Position numbers and translations under genes: made by a program. Under the pieces are notes generated by a model. The model was not told the origin of the DNA and made no database searches. It saw nothing but the letters and a program-made list of their open reading frames with translations. Below, piece by piece: positions 17,387 through 26,616 of a stretch of DNA of 64,000 nucleotides (position 1 is the stretch's first letter; each line of letters starts with the position of its first letter). The DNA comes from Hydrocarboniphaga daqingensis (GTDB lineage: Bacteria > Pseudomonadota > Gammaproteobacteria > Nevskiales > Nevskiaceae), in assembly GCF_900129825.1 (NCBI RefSeq), contig NZ_FQWZ01000003.1, forward strand, positions 240,353 through 304,352. The letters are read 5' to 3'.

Positions 17387-18937
17387 TCAGCCGCCTTTGC
17401 CATCGCCACCCTTGTCGTCGTCGCTGTCATCGCCGCTGTCATCGTCACCATCATCACCGTTGTCGTCGTCGCCATCATCGCCGTCGTCATTGATTTCGAG
17501 TTCGACTTCGGTGGCCTTCAGCGTGGTGGGCGAATAGCTGCCCTTGGCCTTGACCTCGGCACCGGCCGTCAGCGCAGCGTAGAACTCGTCCTGCGTGATC
17601 ACGGCTTCGCCGCGCTGGTAGCGGGCGCTGCTGGCGTCGACCGCGACGCCGATGATGACCAGCTGCTCGGTGACGGCATCGAAGCTGGACACCGGGCCGC
17701 GCACTTCGCTGCGGGTTTCCGCATCGTCACGCTCGACGCGGGTGGCCAACACATCACTGCCCGCGATCACGAAGCCGATCTCGACGTAGTCACCCACGCT
17801 CAAGCCGGCAAACTGGAAGGTCTTGATCTTGTCGCGATCGTCTTCGTAGATCGTCGAGGTGTTGGTCTTGACCGTGGTGTTGAGCAGCTTGATCGTGCCG
17901 GCCGTGGCGTCGACCGCTTCGATCGTGCCGTAGATGCGGCCGTCGCGTCCGCCCCCGTTGCCGCCGTTGACCTTGAACTCGATCTTGCTGGCGACGACCG
18001 AGCCATCGGCCTGCACGGCGCCTTCTGCTTCCAGTCGCGCGCCGACGACGATGTCGGCTGCGGTGCCGCGCTCGTAGACGGTGCTGTTGCTGATCGTCAC
18101 GGTGACACCGTTGACGACGAAGCGGCTGCCATCAACGGAGGACACCAGACCTTCGACTTCGGCCTTGCCGTTGCGGCGGTCGTCACTGACATCGAAGCCC
18201 TTGCGGCTCTTGATGCGGCTGGCGCGCAACACGGCATCGGCGCCGACACTGCCGCGCACCTCGACCGACAGGCCGTCGGCCAGCGTCAGGCTCGACGGGT
18301 CGAGCGTGGCGTTGGCGTAGTCGACCGTGGTCGTGCCGATCGTGAAGCGCTTCTGCGCCGTATCGAGTGCGGCGACGCTACCGCGCAGACGGGCTTGCGA
18401 CGTGTTGTCTTCCTTTTCGACGTAGCTGGCTTCCAGCGTGCCATTGGACGCATTCGGATAGCCGCTGACCTCGACGAAGTTGCCGACGGCCAGTGCGTCG
18501 AGTCCGGTCAGGTTGCGGAAGATCGTGGCGTCGCTGACGACGACGGTGACACCCAGCGCAACGAAGCGCCGGTTGGCCAGATCGATGCTCTGCACCGGGC
18601 CCTTGATTTCGGAGCCGTAGACGACTTCGCTGGCGCTGCGGTTGCCGCGATCATCCAGTGTGCCGGCGATGGTCACGATCTGGCCGACCGACAAGTCGTC
18701 CTGGCCGCCGCTGGAGTCGTCGATCTTGAAGGCAGCACTCGACACATCGAAGCGCACGCCGTTGACGATCACGCTGCCGAAGCCGGTGATCGGGCCTGAC
18801 ATCACCACCGGCGTGGTCGTACCGCTCGGCGTCGTTGGCGTACTGCTGGAATCGCTGCCGCCACCGCCGCCGCACGCGGCGATGAAGGCACTGATGCTGG
18901 CGGCCGCCAGGCGGGCGCTTTTGCTGATCTGGATCAT
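17387..18937 (-). CDS. DUF5666 multi-repeat lipoprotein with Asp/Gly-rich tail
   Basis: A 516-residue exported lipoprotein. The signal peptide ends in AFIAAC followed by a Gly run and a Ser/Thr/Pro linker. Then come about six degenerate repeats of roughly 70 residues, each opening with a G-x-(I/V)-x-x-(F/I/V)-D/G turn (GPITGFG, GPVQSID, GSVAALD, GLVSSVD, GTIEAVD, GPVSSFD). These are small beta-barrel DUF5666 units. The last 35 or so residues are almost all Asp and Gly, a likely Ca2+-binding or polyanionic tail. ATG 18937 is chosen because the signal peptide begins there. It has an ECF-type promoter matching that of the nearby sigma gene. Molecular function is unknown. Confidence 0.82.
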   Translation of the reverse strand: MIQISKSARLAAASISAFIAACGGGGGSDSSSTPTTPSGTTTPVVMSGPITGFGSVIVNGVRFDVSSAAFKIDDSSGGQDDLSVGQIVTIAGTLDDRGNRSASEVVYGSEIKGPVQSIDLANRRFVALGVTVVVSDATIFRNLTGLDALAVGNFVEVSGYPNASNGTLEASYVEKEDNTSQARLRGSVAALDTAQKRFTIGTTTVDYANATLDPSSLTLADGLSVEVRGSVGADAVLRASRIKSRKGFDVSDDRRNGKAEVEGLVSSVDGSRFVVNGVTVTISNSTVYERGTAADIVVGARLEAEGAVQADGSVVASKIEFKVNGGNGGGRDGRIYGTIEAVDATAGTIKLLNTTVKTNTSTIYEDDRDKIKTFQFAGLSVGDYVEIGFVIAGSDVLATRVERDDAETRSEVRGPVSSFDAVTEQLVIIGVAVDASSARYQRGEAVITQDEFYAALTAGAEVKAKGSYSPTTLKATEVELEINDDGDDGDDDNGDDGDDDSGDDSDDDKGGDGKGG

Positions 18938-19007
18938 GGGGTTCTCGGTTGACTGCGCTGTTGCTGCCGGTGCAATCGACGTTCGATCAGCCCGGCTCCT
19001 ATCCCGA

Positions 19008-19033
19008 CAACGATCCATCCAGCGGTTTATTCC
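19008..19033 (-). promoter_or_regulatory. ECF-sigma-type promoter of the DUF5666 gene
   Basis: On the minus strand GGAATAA (19033-19027) is followed after exactly 14 bases by CGTTG (19012-19008). The same two blocks with the same spacing precede the ECF sigma gene at 21.47 kb, and a variant precedes the receptor at 22.95 kb. The expected start is near 19001, giving a leader of about 64 bases. Confidence 0.65.
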
Positions 19034-19153
19034 ACGCCCGGTACGATTTTCGAAAATAAATAAACTTTCAGCGCGGTCGCGGCGAGCCGCCCGCGGCTGC
19101 GTATGATCGGCGCCGCGTCATGACGACAAGACCAATAAAGCGATGGGGGTAGC

Positions 19154-20095
19154 GTGACAATCGACATCAAGCGTCTGCTGCGATGCGGCATTTGCGGCCT
19201 GGCCGCGTCCGGCAGCGCTGTCGGCACCGCGTCGGCTGCGACGGCGCTGCAGCTGACGGCCGGATCGGAGTATTCCAGTGGTCGTTATGGCGGCAGCACG
19301 CGCACCGACACGCTGGTCACGCCGATTACCGCGCGGCTGCGCTGGAATCACTGGTCGCTGCGCGCCTCGCTGCCGATCGTCAATCTCAGTGGTCCTGCCG
19401 ACGTCACGGTGCTGGTCGGCGATGACGGCGGCGGTGACAGTTCCAGCAGTGGTGAGGAGAGCAGCAACAGCGGCTCCGGCTCCAGCGGCAGTGGCAGCGG
19501 CAGTGATCCCGATGATGGCGATGACACCGCAGAAGAGATCGAAGAGGAGCTCGAAGACGAGGCCGAGGATATCGAGCGCTTCGACGCCAATCGCAACGTG
19601 ACCGGGATCGGCGACGCGAGCCTGGCGCTGACCTATTCGTTCAACGACATCGCTGGCAGTGCGTTCTACGTCGACGCCACCGGAAGGGTGAAGTTCGCCA
19701 CCGGCAGCGAGCGCAAGGGTCTGGGCGTCGGTGCCACCGACTACGCCGCCACCGGTGAGCTGGGCTGGGACTCGGGCCTTTATGGTGCTTATGTCGGAGG
19801 GGGCCGCCGATTTCTCGGTGACAACCAGTTGCTCGACCGCGTCGACGGTTGGCAGGCCGGTGGCGGGGCTTGGGTCAACGTGACGCCAGCGGTCGAATTG
19901 GGCGCCAATGTCCAGTGGCGCTCGGCTTCGGTACAAGGCGATACCCATCCGGCCTCGGCGGATGGCACGGTGACCGTGCGACTCAGCGATCGCTGGCGCG
20001 TGTCCATCGCCGGTGGCGCCGGCCTGTCGGACGGCAGTGCGGATTACTTCGGCGGCCTGACGCTGCTGTGGAACGTGGCCAGCACGCGGCGCTGA
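19154..20095 (+). CDS. Outer-membrane beta-barrel protein with Ser/Gly and acidic insert
   Basis: A 313-residue exported protein. GTG 19154 is preceded by GGGGG and starts a signal peptide ending near GTASA. The mature part has alternating strand patterns with aromatic girdles (TPITARLRWNHWSLRASLPIV; GLYGAYVGGGRRFLG; VELGANVQWRSASV) and a terminal beta-strand LLWNVASTRR, as in transporter-like barrels. Residues about 91-145 are a low-complexity insert of Ser, Gly, Asp and Glu, probably an extracellular loop. It is divergent from the DUF5666 gene, which has its own acidic tail. No family was recognised; a porin-like or structural role is possible. Confidence 0.68.
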   Translation: MTIDIKRLLRCGICGLAASGSAVGTASAATALQLTAGSEYSSGRYGGSTRTDTLVTPITARLRWNHWSLRASLPIVNLSGPADVTVLVGDDGGGDSSSSGEESSNSGSGSSGSGSGSDPDDGDDTAEEIEEELEDEAEDIERFDANRNVTGIGDASLALTYSFNDIAGSAFYVDATGRVKFATGSERKGLGVGATDYAATGELGWDSGLYGAYVGGGRRFLGDNQLLDRVDGWQAGGGAWVNVTPAVELGANVQWRSASVQGDTHPASADGTVTVRLSDRWRVSIAGGAGLSDGSADYFGGLTLLWNVASTRR

Positions 20096-20150
20096 GCTGA
20101 CGGCTTGTGTTGACCGCAGCGGCCGCTGCGGTGCGTCACGGTGCTGCCGA

Positions 20151-20870
20151 TCAGCGCCATTGCCGTTCGATCAGCTGGCGCTCCTGCTCGGGCGCCAGCG
20201 CGTCGCCGCCGCCCAGACGATTCATCGCCGAGTCCAGCGCCGCGCTCGCGCCGGCGGGCTGATAGCCGTCGCTGGCGCCGGCCTGCGGTGCCGTTGCGTC
20301 CCAGGCGACCACCTGCCAGCCCGTGTCGGTCGCGGCGCGGCAGGCCAGGCCTTCGCCGCCGGCTTGCGCGAACAGCCGGCAATGGCGGCCATCGGCTGCC
20401 GCGAAGCTCAACTCGATCCGTGTGGCCCCGGCCACGCCGCTGGGCTGCCGGTCGAGCGCGGCCTGCCAGCCGCTGTCGGCCTGTAGCCAGGGCGCGGTCG
20501 CTCCGGCATCACCGCTGTCGTGACGCGTCAGCAGCGCTTGACCGAGCACGATCGCGCCCAGTCCTGCCGCCATCGCCATCACGCTGGCGAGGCGCCGTCG
20601 CCGACGCAGCGCCGGACGCGGCATGGTCATGACCGGCGCTGGCGCGCGCCGTGCCGACGCAGTACCGCCCAGAATCAGCGCCGCGAGCGGATCGGCCTCG
20701 GCGCTACCCAGCGGCATCGCGGCGCGCAGTCGCGCATCGCTGTCGCTCAGTGCCTGCAGCCGCTCGCGTGCGGCGGCATCGCGCGCCAGTAGCGATTCCA
20801 GAGCAGCACGCGCGTCGGCGTCGAGCTCATCGTCCAGGTAGGCACTCAGCGTTTCGTCGGTCGGGTTCAT
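20151..20870 (-). CDS. Membrane anti-sigma factor
   Basis: About 239 residues from ATG 20870 (an alternative start lies at 20912). The cytosolic N-terminus MNPTDETLSAYLDDELDADAR is the standard start of anti-sigma domains, followed by helices that would clamp the sigma factor. One membrane segment (RRLASVMAMAAGLGAIVLGQALL) leads to a periplasmic C-terminal domain with two cysteines (RHCRLF, GLACRA). The HxxxCxxC zinc motif is absent. It lies directly downstream of the ECF sigma gene on the same strand, the usual sigma/anti-sigma order. The periplasmic Cys pair could sense redox state; this is speculation. Confidence 0.82.
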   Translation of the reverse strand: MNPTDETLSAYLDDELDADARAALESLLARDAAARERLQALSDSDARLRAAMPLGSAEADPLAALILGGTASARRAPAPVMTMPRPALRRRRRLASVMAMAAGLGAIVLGQALLTRHDSGDAGATAPWLQADSGWQAALDRQPSGVAGATRIELSFAAADGRHCRLFAQAGGEGLACRAATDTGWQVVAWDATAPQAGASDGYQPAGASAALDSAMNRLGGGDALAPEQERQLIERQWR

Positions 20871-20939
20871 CGGCTTGTCGTCATCCTGAAGTTCATCGTC
20901 GTCCAGTCGCAAAAGGCGGTCAGCGCCGGCGGTTGCGAA

Positions 20940-21443
20940 TCAACCGGCGCCGACGCCGACGGCGCGGCCGCCCAAGGCCTCGGCCATCCGGCTGCGCGCC
21001 CGTGCCAGCCGGCTCATCACCGTGCCGATCGGTACGCCGATGACGTCGGCGGCTTGCTGGTAGGACAGGCCGTCAAGCACCACCAGCGCCAGCACCGCAC
21101 GCTGCTCATCGGGCAATGCGCGCATCGCGCGCCGTGCCTCGTCGATCTGCAACTGCTGCAGCGTCACGTCGCGCCCGTCCTCACCGACGACCTGCTCCGC
21201 TTCGTCCAGCGGCTCGGCGCGGCGCCGATGGGCGCGCAATTCGTCGCGCCACAGGTTCTGCGCGATCTTGTACAGCCAGCTGTCCATCCGCGTGCCCGGC
21301 TGCCATTGGGCGGCGTACAGCAGCGCGCGCTCGACGCTGGCTTGCACCAGATCGTCGGCGTCCGCCGGCGAGCCGCACAGGGCCAGCGCAAACCGTCGCA
21401 ACCTCGGTAGCAGTTCTACCAGCTCACGCCTGAAATCCGGCAT
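20940..21443 (-). CDS. ECF RNA polymerase sigma factor
   Basis: A 167-residue sigma factor with region 2 (LPRLRRFALALCGSPADADDLVQASVERAL, then YKIAQNLWRDELRAHRRR) and region 4 (LPDEQRAVLALVVLDGLSYQQAADVIGVPIGTVMSRLARARSRM). It lacks regions 1 and 3, as ECF factors do. AAGGTGA precedes ATG 21443. The promoter on its own strand carries GGAATAA-N14-CGTTG, the same motif found before the DUF5666 lipoprotein, which suggests autoregulation and a small local regulon. It is divergent from the subtilisin-like protease. Confidence 0.92.
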   Translation of the reverse strand: MPDFRRELVELLPRLRRFALALCGSPADADDLVQASVERALLYAAQWQPGTRMDSWLYKIAQNLWRDELRAHRRRAEPLDEAEQVVGEDGRDVTLQQLQIDEARRAMRALPDEQRAVLALVVLDGLSYQQAADVIGVPIGTVMSRLARARSRMAEALGGRAVGVGAG

Positions 21444-21467
21444 CCGTCTTCACCTTCTTGCATTGCA

Positions 21468-21493
21468 CAACGAACCAGCGGCGGGATTATTCC
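21468..21493 (-). promoter_or_regulatory. ECF-sigma-type autoregulatory promoter
   Basis: On the minus strand GGAATAA (21493-21487) and CGTTG (21472-21468) are separated by 14 bases. The start would fall about 15-20 bases before the sigma ATG at 21443. The site also overlaps the upstream region of the divergent protease gene (ATG 21527). Confidence 0.65.
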
Positions 21494-21526
21494 CCTCGCG
21501 GTCCGGTTTATGTAGTGTCGGCGCCG

Positions 21527-22894
21527 ATGACCCGTCCTAGACGCCTTGTTCCCTTGCAGGCCTGCCTGCTGATGGCGCTGCTCGCGCTGCCGGTTTCGGC
21601 ACGCGACGAGCCGCGCGAAGTCCGTGACAGTCGCGAGTCGCACGAGGTCCGCGACGATCGCGGCGATCGCGACGACCGTTCGGGACGCGATGCCGATCGG
21701 GAGCGCGATCGCGATCGCGAGCCGCGCGATGATGACCGCGACGACCGCGATGACCGTGATGACGACCGCAGCGACGACCGCGGGGGTGATTCGGATCGCG
21801 GGCGCGGCGAGGACGACGATGCGCTGTCGCGCGACCCGCTGGTCCCGCGCGCCGACGATGTGATCGCCTTCGAGCGAGGCGGCGATGGCCATGAGCATCG
21901 CCAGGGCGAAGTGCTGATGGTCGGTGAGGCGGCGGATCTGCTTGGCGTGCAGCAGGGCGGCTACCGCGTGTTCGACCTCCGACCACTGGAGGCACTCGGA
22001 CTGGTCCAGGCACGCGTTCGGCTTGCTCCGGGCGAGTCGGTGGCCGCTGCGGTCGAGCGGGTACAAGCCTTGGCCCCGCAGGCGGCAGTCGCGCCGAATC
22101 ATCTGTTTTCCGCGTCGGCGCCCGCGCCAGTCTCGGCCCCATCACCGGCCGGGTCCGCGCCGCGCCGCACCGTGGTGGGCGGGCGCATCGGCATCATCGA
22201 CACCGGCGCCGAGTTCGCGACCGGTCCGCTGTCTGCCGTGGTGGACGAGGCACGCAGCTTTACCGGTCAGTCTTACTCACCGCGAGAGCACGGCAGCGTC
22301 GTGGCGGCCATTGCGGCGGCGCAGGGCTTGAGACTGGGCGTGGCCGACGTGTTCGCGATCGACACGGCGCAGCGCTTGGTTGCACCGACCGACGCGATCG
22401 CCAGCGCGGTCGACTGGCTGGTCGGTCGCCGCTACCCGGTCATCAACATCAGCATCGAAGGCCCCGACAACGCGGTGCTGGCGCAAGTCGTGCGGCGCGC
22501 CGCCGCTCGCGGTGTCGTGGTGGTGGCAGCGGCCGGCAATGGCGGGCCGGCGGCCGCGCCGGTGTATCCGGCCGCCTACCCCGACGTGGTCGCAGTGACC
22601 GCCGTCGACGGCGATGGCCGTGGTTATCGGCGCGCCAACCGCGGACGCTACATCGGGTTTGCAGCGCTCGGCGTCGATGTGCTGAACCCGTTTGATCCAG
22701 CGGCGCGGTCGACGGTGTCGGGTACGTCGTTTGCCGCGCCTCGTGTTGCCGCGGAGATCGCGTTGCGGTTATCCGACCAACCGCCGGGCTCGGCGACGGC
22801 GGTGTTGGCTGCGTTGAGATCCGAGGCACGCGATCTGGGTGAGCCTGGGCACGACCCGGTGTACGGCTGGGGATGGATCGGCGCCGCCCGCTGA
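21527..22894 (+). CDS. Subtilisin-like (S8) serine peptidase with Asp/Arg repeat region
   Basis: A 455-residue exported protease. After the signal peptide (to about residue 25) comes a 73-residue run composed almost only of Asp, Arg, Glu and Gly (26-98). A linker and the catalytic domain follow, with Asp225 in GIIDTGAE, His255 in REHGSVVAAIA, the oxyanion Asn338 in AAAGNGGP and nucleophile Ser401 in SGTSFAAPRVA. All catalytic residues are present, although the domain is short. ATG 21527 starts the signal peptide. It is divergent from the ECF sigma operon by 83 bases, which suggests a role in the same surface response, such as maturation or cleavage of envelope proteins. No autotransporter domain is present. 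Confidence 0.85.
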   Translation: MTRPRRLVPLQACLLMALLALPVSARDEPREVRDSRESHEVRDDRGDRDDRSGRDADRERDRDREPRDDDRDDRDDRDDDRSDDRGGDSDRGRGEDDDALSRDPLVPRADDVIAFERGGDGHEHRQGEVLMVGEAADLLGVQQGGYRVFDLRPLEALGLVQARVRLAPGESVAAAVERVQALAPQAAVAPNHLFSASAPAPVSAPSPAGSAPRRTVVGGRIGIIDTGAEFATGPLSAVVDEARSFTGQSYSPREHGSVVAAIAAAQGLRLGVADVFAIDTAQRLVAPTDAIASAVDWLVGRRYPVINISIEGPDNAVLAQVVRRAAARGVVVVAAAGNGGPAAAPVYPAAYPDVVAVTAVDGDGRGYRRANRGRYIGFAALGVDVLNPFDPAARSTVSGTSFAAPRVAAEIALRLSDQPPGSATAVLAALRSEARDLGEPGHDPVYGWGWIGAAR

Positions 22895-22952
22895 CGGCGG
22901 TGACCGTACGTCGGCGCGCGCGTCGCGGTGCTCCCCAGCCTGACGCCGTTCG

Positions 22953-22979
22953 GGAATAATGCCGCGCCCCGACGCGTAG
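22953..22979 (+). promoter_or_regulatory. ECF-sigma-type promoter of the TonB receptor gene
   Basis: GGAATAA (22953-22959) is followed by 15 bases and CGTAG (22975-22979), a one-base-longer variant of the sigma and DUF5666 promoters. The expected start is 10-15 bases before ATG 22997, so the leader would be very short. Confidence 0.55.
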
Positions 22980-22996
22980 CCTAAAAGACGTCATTG

Positions 22997-25444
22997 ATGA
23001 CGCTTGACTGGTGTGCTCTCCAGAATGCGATCGCCCGTTATGGCCGGGTTCTGATCGCGGCTGCCTGCTGGCTGCCCTGTGATAGCGGGGCGCAGACGAC
23101 GGCGGACGAGCTTGATCCTGTCGCGACCGTCGTCGAACTGCCGACCGTGATCGTCACATCGCGTCACAGCCAGGAGCGAGCGCTCGACGTGCCGATCTCG
23201 CTGGTGACGCTGTCGGGTGACGACCTGGCGGCCGCCGGATTGAGCTCGGTCACCGATCTGCCGCAGCGGGTGCCGGGCCTGACCGTGGTCTCGGTCAATC
23301 CGCGGCTGACGACGTTCTCGATCCGCGGCTTGGGCAGCAGCAGCCAGAACGACGGCATCGAAAGCAGCGTTGGCTTGTTCGTCGACGGCATCTACGCCGG
23401 ACGTGCCGGCAACTCGGTGTTCGACTTGATCGACCTCGAGCGAATCGAGGTACTGCGCGGCCCGCAGGGCACGCTCTATGGCAAGAACACGACCGCCGGT
23501 GCCATTCACGTGGTCACGCGCCTGCCGACGCAATCGTTTGAAGTCCAGGGTGAGTCGCGATTGTCGGAATACGGCGGCGAGCAGTTTCGCGGCACCGTCA
23601 GCGGGCCGCTGGTCGACGACGAACTGGCCGCTCGGCTGACCGGCTACAGCACGCGCCGCGACGGCTTGATCGAAAACCGCTTCGACGGTCAAACCTTGAA
23701 CAACCGTGACAAGGCCGGCGCGCGCGGTCAGTTGCTGTGGACGCCATCAGGGCGGGACCTGGTGGCCAGACTGATCACCGAATACGGTCGCGGCGACGAA
23801 AGCTGCTGTGCCTATCCGCTGGTGGCGCCGATTCGTCCCAACGTGACCGTGCGCGACGACTACATGGAATACACCCGCGCCTCATCTGATCCTTTCGATC
23901 GCGAGGCCGATTCCGATTTGCCGACGCGGGCCTTCGTCGAGCTCAGCGCCGCCTCGCTGGAGCTGGTGCTGCCGCTGGGCTCGCAGCAGACGCTGACCAG
24001 CCTCAGTGGTTGGCGCGACTGGCACTCGGTGCCGCTGAGCGACGACGGTACGTCGCTGCGATTGGCCGCATTCGGCACGGCCAACGGCCAGCAGCAATTC
24101 AGCCAGGAGCTGCGGCTGAATCGCGACGACGGCGCGTTCAAGAGCGTGGCAGGCCTCTACTACCTGCACCAGCAGCTGGAAGGTCGCGATCGTGCGGTGC
24201 TCGGTGACGAGTTGGTGCAGTGGACGCTCGGCGGTTTGATCCGCGAACGCGTACCGGGCGCAACGCGCCGCGACGTCGGCCTGGCGCTCGACCTGTTGAT
24301 CCCGCCACGGACGCTCGACGGCATGGTCGTACAGGCGCCCTACTGGCAACACACCGACAGCGTCGCGGGGTTCGCCTCCACGCACTGGCAGGCGCTGGAT
24401 TCGCTGATCGTCGACCTGGGCTTGCGCTATACGCATGAGTGGAAACTGGCCAACGTCAGCCGCTCGCGCTCCGGCGGCGATGTCGACGCCAGCCCGCTGG
24501 CGCTGACCAACAATCTCGACGTGCTCGGCAACTTGATCGGCGTCGATCTGAGCGGTGCCACGTTCAACGGCCTGATCGATGGCTTGGTCGGCGGCGAGTT
24601 CAGCCGTCGTGACCGTTACTCGGAAGGCAACGTGTCGGGCAATGTCGCGCTGAATTACACGCTGACGCCACATGCCAGTGTCTACGGGTCGGTGGCACGC
24701 GGCTACAAGAGCGGTGGCATCAATCTCGGGGTCACCGGCGAGACGGTCAAGCCGACGTTCAAACCCGAGACGGTCAACGCCTACGAGCTCGGCGCCAAGG
24801 CCGACCTGCTGCAACGCCGTCTGTCGCTGTCGGGCGCGCTCTATTACTCGCAGGTCCGCAACTATCAGGCGCTGACGTTCAATGAAGACAAGGCACTGAT
24901 CCCCGATCCGCGCCAGACCAATCTGCTCAACGTCGGCCGTGTGCGCTTGCGCGGTGTCGAGTTGCAGGCCGACGCCTTGCTTCCGGCCGATCTACGCTTG
25001 CGCGCTGCGCTGGCGTACAACGACGCCGTGACGGTCGACTTTCGCAATGCGCCCGACGAAGACACGCGCCGCAACGACCGCGACCTCAGCGGTCGCCAGC
25101 TGTACAACGCGCCGCGCTGGAGCGGCAATGTCGGCTTGAGCCACAGCCTGTCGCTGGGGCACTCGCTGGTGCTGGAGTCGGGTGTCGATACGTCGTACCG
25201 CAGCGATACATTCGGCAGCGTCGAGCGCGGCCGCTCCAGTCGCATCGAGGGCTACACGCTGACCGATCTGCGCGTCGACGTGCGCAGCGAACGGCAAGGC
25301 TGGGTCGTAGGAGCCTGGGTGCGCAACGTGTTCGACGAGCAGTATCTGGCAGCGACGCAGGCGCTGTACGGCGTCGGCGATTACGGCGGTTTTGCCGGTG
25401 ACCCGCGCATCATCGGCCTGCGTTTCGGCTGGACGCTGCCGTGA
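22997..25444 (+). CDS. TonB-dependent receptor, iron-complex type
   Basis: An 815-residue outer-membrane receptor. It has a signal peptide to about residue 33, then a TonB-box-like VELPTVIVTS. The plug domain follows with SIRGLGSSSQNDGIESSVGLFVDGIYAGR and LERIEVLRGPQGTLYGKNTTAGAIHVVTR. The barrel ends with YGGFAGDPRIIGLRFGWTLP. It lacks an N-terminal STN signalling domain, so it is not a FecA-type transducer for the sigma factor. ATG 22997 is preferred over TTG 22994. Its stop overlaps the GTG of a diguanylate cyclase by 4 bases. It carries the ECF-type promoter of the local regulon. The substrate is unknown; the NTTAGAIHVVT class takes many ligands besides siderophores. Confidence 0.9.
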   Translation: MTLDWCALQNAIARYGRVLIAAACWLPCDSGAQTTADELDPVATVVELPTVIVTSRHSQERALDVPISLVTLSGDDLAAAGLSSVTDLPQRVPGLTVVSVNPRLTTFSIRGLGSSSQNDGIESSVGLFVDGIYAGRAGNSVFDLIDLERIEVLRGPQGTLYGKNTTAGAIHVVTRLPTQSFEVQGESRLSEYGGEQFRGTVSGPLVDDELAARLTGYSTRRDGLIENRFDGQTLNNRDKAGARGQLLWTPSGRDLVARLITEYGRGDESCCAYPLVAPIRPNVTVRDDYMEYTRASSDPFDREADSDLPTRAFVELSAASLELVLPLGSQQTLTSLSGWRDWHSVPLSDDGTSLRLAAFGTANGQQQFSQELRLNRDDGAFKSVAGLYYLHQQLEGRDRAVLGDELVQWTLGGLIRERVPGATRRDVGLALDLLIPPRTLDGMVVQAPYWQHTDSVAGFASTHWQALDSLIVDLGLRYTHEWKLANVSRSRSGGDVDASPLALTNNLDVLGNLIGVDLSGATFNGLIDGLVGGEFSRRDRYSEGNVSGNVALNYTLTPHASVYGSVARGYKSGGINLGVTGETVKPTFKPETVNAYELGAKADLLQRRLSLSGALYYSQVRNYQALTFNEDKALIPDPRQTNLLNVGRVRLRGVELQADALLPADLRLRAALAYNDAVTVDFRNAPDEDTRRNDRDLSGRQLYNAPRWSGNVGLSHSLSLGHSLVLESGVDTSYRSDTFGSVERGRSSRIEGYTLTDLRVDVRSERQGWVVGAWVRNVFDEQYLAATQALYGVGDYGGFAGDPRIIGLRFGWTLP

Positions 25445-26616
25445 ATCCGCCGCTCGATCAGCATTTCGACGTGCGCACGGCGCTGGTGATCTGGCTGCTG
25501 GTGCAGTTCTCGTTCGGCGTACTGGAGCTGATCATGGCCAGCACCCGGCGCGATACGCCGCTGCTGTTGATGACCAGCCTGTCCGCCTTGATCACCGGCG
25601 TCAGCACGCTGCTGCTTGCATTGCGCGGGCTGATTCCCGATGCGCTGAGCATCGGTGTGGCAAACGGCTTGTACTGGCTCGGCCTGTCGATGCTGTGGAC
25701 TGGCATGCGCTTGTTTTCGCGGCGCCCGGTCCATCTTTGGCTGATCTGGCTGCCGGCGCTGGCCATTGCGCTGGCCTTTACCTTCGTGCCGGCGATCGCC
25801 GGCGACTTTCGCATTCGGGTGCAGATCAGCTGCTATTCGCTGGCTTTGATCACCGGCGTGACCGCGTTGGATCTGATCGGTGATCAGCGCCGCGAGCCGC
25901 TGGTGGCGCGCCACATCGTGCTGCTGGCGGTGCTGGTGTCGACCTTCGCGCTGCTCGGACAAGGCGTGCTGGCCAGTGTCGTCGGTCCGTCGGCAACCTC
26001 GCTGCGAGGCGTGCCCCGGGTGCAGCAGGCATCGGCGATTCTGCTGGTCGTGGTGACGATGCTCTGGCACATCGGCCTGCTGCTGATGATCAGCGAACGC
26101 TTGCAAAACCGGCTGTTGCTGTTGGCCGAGCGCGATGGCCTGACCGGAGTGCTCAATCGGGCCGGTTTCGAGCGGCTGGGCCAGCGCCAGGTCGAGCGCT
26201 GCCACCGCTCGGGGTCGGCTTCGACCGTGCTGATGATGGATCTGGACTACTTCAAGCAGGTCAATGATCGCTACGGCCACGACATCGGCGATCAAATGCT
26301 GCGGCTGTTCGTGCAGACCGTCCGTGGCCTGCTGCGTCCCGGCGACTTGTTCGGCCGTTACGGCGGCGAAGAGTTTTGCGTGCTACTGCCAGCGACCGTT
26401 GCCGCCGATGCGGTGGTGATCGGCGAGCGCCTGCGCGAATGCTTCGAGCGCGTCAGCCTGCCGGTCGATCAAGAACGCTCGTTGTCGACGACGGTGACGA
26501 TCGGTGTCTACACGGTGCCCGGTCACGACCGGTCACTGGCGTCGGCGATGAAGATCGCGGACGCGGCGCTTTACGTCGGCAAGCGCCGCGGCCGCAACTG
26601 CGTGGTGCTGGCCTAG
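25441..26616 (+). CDS. Membrane diguanylate cyclase (GGDEF)
   Basis: A 391-residue inner-membrane enzyme that makes cyclic di-GMP. About six or seven hydrophobic segments span residues 13-217. The GGDEF domain follows, with RDGLTGVLNRAGF (231-243), LMMDLDYFKQVNDRYGHDIGD and an intact GGEEF (308-312). RPGD at 299-302 is the RxxD inhibitory site in its standard place, so product feedback is expected. GTG 25441 overlaps the TonB-receptor stop (GTGA), so receptor and cyclase are translationally coupled. The last codon shares a CTAG with the convergent lipoprotein gene. The N-terminal sensor is not a recognised domain. Confidence 0.9.
   Translation: MNPPLDQHFDVRTALVIWLLVQFSFGVLELIMASTRRDTPLLLMTSLSALITGVSTLLLALRGLIPDALSIGVANGLYWLGLSMLWTGMRLFSRRPVHLWLIWLPALAIALAFTFVPAIAGDFRIRVQISCYSLALITGVTALDLIGDQRREPLVARHIVLLAVLVSTFALLGQGVLASVVGPSATSLRGVPRVQQASAILLVVVTMLWHIGLLLMISERLQNRLLLLAERDGLTGVLNRAGFERLGQRQVERCHRSGSASTVLMMDLDYFKQVNDRYGHDIGDQMLRLFVQTVRGLLRPGDLFGRYGGEEFCVLLPATVAADAVVIGERLRECFERVSLPVDQERSLSTTVTIGVYTVPGHDRSLASAMKIADAALYVGKRRGRNCVVLA

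Follow-up and report, generated by a model that had tools for sequence, protein, structure and literature searches.

The locus analysed here in Hydrocarboniphaga daqingensis raises the question of what reads a two-block element, GGAATAA-N14/15-CGT(T/A)G, which precedes three neighbouring transcription units: the operon of an ECF sigma factor, the gene of a DUF5666 lipoprotein, and an operon encoding a TonB-dependent receptor and a GGDEF protein. The stretch of DNA analysed, hereafter the window, comprises 64,000 nucleotides (contig NZ_FQWZ01000003.1, positions 240,353 to 304,352). From its letters, an earlier note had proposed that a single sigma factor drives all three units. Our analysis indicates that the promoter shared by the three genes is almost certainly read by the sigma factor encoded between them.

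Results

Reading the window sequence located all three sites at the coordinates and on the strands given in the earlier note. The predicted promoters of the sigma/anti-sigma operon (21468..21493, minus strand; GGAATAATCCCGCCGCTGGTTCGTTG) and of the DUF5666 lipoprotein gene (19008..19033, minus strand; GGAATAAACCGCTGGATGGATCGTTG) both have the form GGAATAA-N14-CGTTG, read from 21493 to 21468 and from 19033 to 19008, respectively, and the one predicted for the TonB receptor-GGDEF operon (22953..22979, plus strand; GGAATAATGCCGCGCCCCGACGCGTAG) is GGAATAA-N15-CGTAG. As had been claimed, each site is aimed at its own gene at a plausible distance, the -10 block ending 24 nt before the start codon of the sigma gene (ATG at 21443), 70 nt before that of the DUF5666 gene (ATG at 18937), and 17 nt before that of the TonB receptor gene (ATG at 22997). 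The spacers of the two N14 sites are identical at 7 of 14 bases and the sites are unlike outside the blocks, so they do not represent a copied DNA stretch. A scan of 18900-23100 for sigma-70 promoters and terminators found none.

The element is rare. In the window, the pattern GGAATAAN{13,16}CGT has three matches, just the three sites, against 0.11 expected, and none of 100 shuffles reached three. The genome-wide scan that the earlier note had called for, carried out with exact patterns over 3.79 Mb, found GGAATAAN{13,16}CGTWG at exactly these three sites and nowhere for the reversed-pattern control. With the last two bases dropped, so that the pattern ends in CGT, there were 9 matches and 3 for the reversed control; six of the looser matches were set aside as lying within coding sequence or facing no nearby gene start. 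One looser match, GGAATAA-N14-CGT at G000:C5:120941-120964 (L005), lies inside an apparent rluD and faces a divergent apparent bamD lipoprotein gene about 200 nt away, and is probably due to chance.

The sigma factor (20940..21443, minus strand; 167 aa) has the composition of an ECF factor, with just regions 2 and 4 and both Pfam domains (Sigma70_r2 and Sigma70_r4_2) above cut-off. In the tree it falls into one clade with RpoE6 of Sinorhizobium meliloti, an ECF26 factor already studied, and further factors linked to S8 genes; this clade leaves out RpoE1/3/4 and has a support of 88/97, below the starred level. RpoE6 has been assigned to group ECF26, for which the consensus GGAATA/GT was obtained from promoters with mapped starts, including RpoE6 targets, and across which a divergent protease is widely conserved (Lang et al., PMC6180224). 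An S. meliloti strain devoid of ECF factors has served for work on ECF26 (PMC10880074). Upstream of the sigma gene studied here are found both a -35 GGAATA and a -10 GT, and the divergent serine protease gene expected of the RpoE6 branch is the S8 gene at 21527-22894. The anti-sigma factor has the gene order and the single span of ECF26 systems, with a weak match of the N-terminal domain. Since tree, gene order, and promoter agree, we place the factor in ECF26; judged by sequence, it is a further member of this known family of bacterial envelope-response switches.

The predicted anti-sigma factor (20151..20870, minus strand, ATG at 20870; 239 aa) is encoded downstream of the sigma factor, as at relatives' loci, and consists of an N-terminal anti-sigma-like part, one transmembrane stretch, and a periplasmic end. 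It has a weak NCBIfam antisigma match (5.3e-7) and a sub-threshold zf-HC2 match, and the hydrophobic stretch VMAMAAGLGAIVLGQALLT follows RRRRR. Divergent from the sigma gene is the gene for a secreted S8 (subtilase) protease (21527..22894, plus strand; Pfam Peptidase_S8, 8.6e-21), which contains the Asp, His, and Ser motifs (DTG/HGS/SGTS) and is the divergent neighbour of the sigma factor in many relatives. A matrix search upstream of this gene gave nothing above 9 bits; being without a site, the gene may use another promoter. It is conceivable that the protease cuts the anti-sigma factor. An outer-membrane-barrel-like protein (19154..20095, plus strand) is also conserved at the locus, with 44-48% identical neighbours in L137-L140. 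No matching promoter was found for its gene here, and the motif is located 140 nt upstream of its relative in L137 (G018).

Conservation was assessed at 36 related loci with this sigma type, some belonging to named genomes and others to members of the same family; one cultured relative has a sigma factor 70% identical to this one. GGAATA-N14-17-CGT occurs within 170 bp upstream of the sigma gene in 27 of the 36, compared with 1.6% of random 180-bp pieces from the same loci, which supports the proposed autoregulation. Among these 27 loci, 21 have the motif oriented toward the sigma gene and 13 divergently, toward the S8 gene. In a pattern-free count of words upstream of related sigma genes, GGAATAA came out on top. 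A matrix was built from 38 relatives' sites, window excluded. Its training sites were picked by GGAAT and CGT, so that those positions are fixed by choice; the unbiased tests are the pattern-free count of words and the comparison with random pieces. Applied to the 64-kb window, the matrix placed the DUF5666 site (27.2 bits), the sigma site (24.5), and the TonB site (20.9) first to third, with the next at 15.5; in simulation, one site in 1.28 Mb attained 20.9 bits. The spacing in relatives' sites is 14 or 15 only (38/38, with N15 in 11), which is a description rather than an independent probability because related sequences are not independent. The ranking of the three sites, and a form equal to that of mapped S. 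meliloti ECF26 promoters, uphold the earlier view of the element as an ECF-type two-block promoter.

In G037 and G039 (L145 10424-10488 and L146 10455-10589), a related sigma gene is accompanied by divergent N14-CGTCT sites of the GGAATAAA type; the gene they face encodes a membrane-anchored protein, about 365 aa long, that appears catalase-like by eye. In G013 (L142 2562-2587), GGAATAA-N14-CGTTT lies upstream of a gene for a long secreted protein whose beginning contains CANASCH, a cytochrome-like stretch; a further sigma locus of this type is close by.

The DUF5666 lipoprotein (17387..18937, minus strand; 516 aa) has five DUF5666 repeats (Pfam PF18914, 7.9e-63), an acidic tail, and a lipobox AAC. 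A genome search found no DUF5666 gene besides this one, and among solved structures none resembling the protein was found. The motif precedes the DUF5666 gene in all five genomes with both the sigma factor and a full DUF5666 gene, versus one of nine related genomes in which DUF5666 genes occur in the absence of a close sigma relative (Fisher p 0.003, relatedness uncorrected). In G036 the DUF5666 gene is at the sigma locus and has its own GGAATAA-N14-CGTT site. In three of the five genomes (G015, G018, and G019) the two genes are on different contigs, and the site is kept 116-139 nt before the lipobox. G012, whose genome is 88% complete, has the DUF5666 site and no close sigma relative was found in it; the second DUF5666 gene of G036 has no site, and no perfect site was found in the sigma-bearing genomes G035 and G055. 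Across the family, GGAATAA-N14/15-CGTT sites number 23 against 4 for the control in 9 genomes with the sigma factor, and 25 against 30 in the 49 others. Furthermore, G015 and G018 contain two additional unlinked sites, located before genes for secreted proteins that are related to each other and have DUF5666-like ends, one match being above the Pfam cut-off (1.7e-7) and the other weak (0.012). These DUF5666 data argue most strongly that the motif is explained by the sigma factor rather than by mere neighbourhood. Because the motif is kept before sigma genes and before unlinked DUF5666 genes, there is good support for both the sigma operon and the lipoprotein gene as predicted outputs of the sigma factor.

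The same promoter is also seen in G018 and G015 (L250 2399, minus strand, and L251 726, plus strand) before the gene of a small, Asp- and Arg-rich secreted protein; at these loci the S8 proteases and the DUF5666 tails are likewise strongly charged and of low complexity.

The third unit encodes a TonB-dependent receptor (22997..25444, plus strand; 815 aa) with Pfam plug and beta-barrel domains and a membrane GGDEF protein resembling diguanylate cyclases (25441..26616, plus strand; Pfam GGDEF, 1e-41), whose start codon overlaps the receptor stop by 4 bases (junction GTGA). The leader of the receptor transcript would be very short and would lack a clear ribosome-binding site; some related sigma genes, judged by presumed start codons, are preceded by gaps of similar length.

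Discussion

Our results argue for a model in which an ECF26-type sigma factor with a one-span anti-sigma factor serves GGAATAA-N14/15-CGT(T/A) promoters at its own operon, at the lipoprotein gene, and most likely at the receptor-cyclase operon; we put the probability of this model as a whole at roughly 0.86. The RpoE6-like sigma factor would be held at the membrane by the anti-sigma factor until a signal from the envelope or from outside frees it, and RNA polymerase carrying it would then read these promoters. By raising its own operon the sigma factor would create positive feedback, and the anti-sigma factor made along with it would act as a brake that ends the response. The freed sigma factor would also switch on the DUF5666 lipoprotein gene, and the operon of the TonB receptor and the diguanylate cyclase would most likely respond as well.

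The proposal that one sigma factor drives three units thus holds up well for the sigma operon and the lipoprotein gene, through conservation in relatives and the unlinked sites, and less firmly for the receptor-cyclase operon, which has one unconserved N15/CGTAG site. The real targets might be just the first two, with the TonB site a chance match or the promoter of another factor. This site deviates in both its spacing of 15 and its -10 block CGTAG, sites ending in CGTA are not enriched in the sigma-bearing genomes of the family, the TonB/GGDEF pair is missing from relatives' sigma loci, and in G049 and G050 no site precedes the gene of a receptor that is 50% identical and likewise neighbours a GGDEF gene. 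Because CGTA-ending sites are not enriched, the receptor arm hangs on the one site here together with the same rarer form, N15-CGTAG, upstream of the S8 gene in L037. Against a restricted regulon, however, the site stands more than five bits above the next in the window, N15 is the spacing of 11 of the 38 relatives' sites, and the site points at a gene 17 nt away, where about 0.0005 matches would be expected over six promoter-sized stretches. We therefore consider the two-target alternative rather unlikely, and the receptor-GGDEF operon a plausible, if unconserved, regulon member with odds of about three in four.

Two other explanations are far less probable. Since sequence by itself cannot demonstrate transcription, the repeated element could in principle be a transcription-factor site or a mobile repeat instead of a sigma promoter. 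However, its two blocks keep to spacings of 14 or 15, each copy here is aimed at a gene start, its form is that of mapped S. meliloti ECF26 promoters, and the differing spacers and flanks disfavour a mobile repeat, which together make this reading very improbable. The presence of a TonB receptor gene at a distance of two genes from the ECF sigma gene brings to mind iron-uptake switches of the FecI/FecR type, with the receptor signalling to the sigma factor. This reading is slightly less probable still: no FecR or STN domain was found in the anti-sigma factor or the receptor (P0002, P0005), the sigma factor clusters with RpoE6, the promoter is of the GGAATA/CGT kind, and relatives possess the sigma factor without the receptor at the locus.

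Returning to the ECF26 model, we lean towards the view that the core output of an ECF26 sigma factor in this bacterial family is the DUF5666 secreted lipoproteins, wherever they are encoded, and that here an operon for a TonB receptor and a diguanylate cyclase has come under the same control. That DUF5666 genes are a recurrent target, unlinked ones included, would be new, as a search of the open-access literature found nothing connecting DUF5666 with ECF factors; the other addition is the probable capture of the receptor-cyclase operon. These uncharacterised lipoproteins would thereby be tied to an envelope-response sigma factor even where they are encoded elsewhere in the genome, a first point of entry to their regulation, and the promoter definition is precise enough for the complete regulon to be read from any related genome. 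If the capture is real, it would link an envelope signal to c-di-GMP.

Among known ECF26 systems, RpoE1 and RpoE4 of S. meliloti resemble the present one in the kind of promoter, the anti-sigma layout, and the small regulon (PMC3511301, PMC6180224). They differ in responding to sulfite and driving sorT, whereas sulfite oxidation genes were not seen at the locus here; according to preliminary data, rpoE6 is not induced by sulfite (PMC3511301). The RpoE6-EcfR6 system on pSymA shares the divergent S8 protease, the sigma factor, and the downstream membrane anti-sigma factor, as well as the GGAATA-type -35 and CGT -10 blocks, autoregulation, and the location of its strongest targets close by (PMC6180224). 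RpoE6 directly drives SMa0142, its S8 protease gene, and also a second promoter for the anti-sigma factor, located within the sigma gene; no such sites were found at the present locus. The predicted targets are also unlike those of RpoE6, being here the DUF5666 lipoprotein and, probably, the TonB receptor-GGDEF operon.
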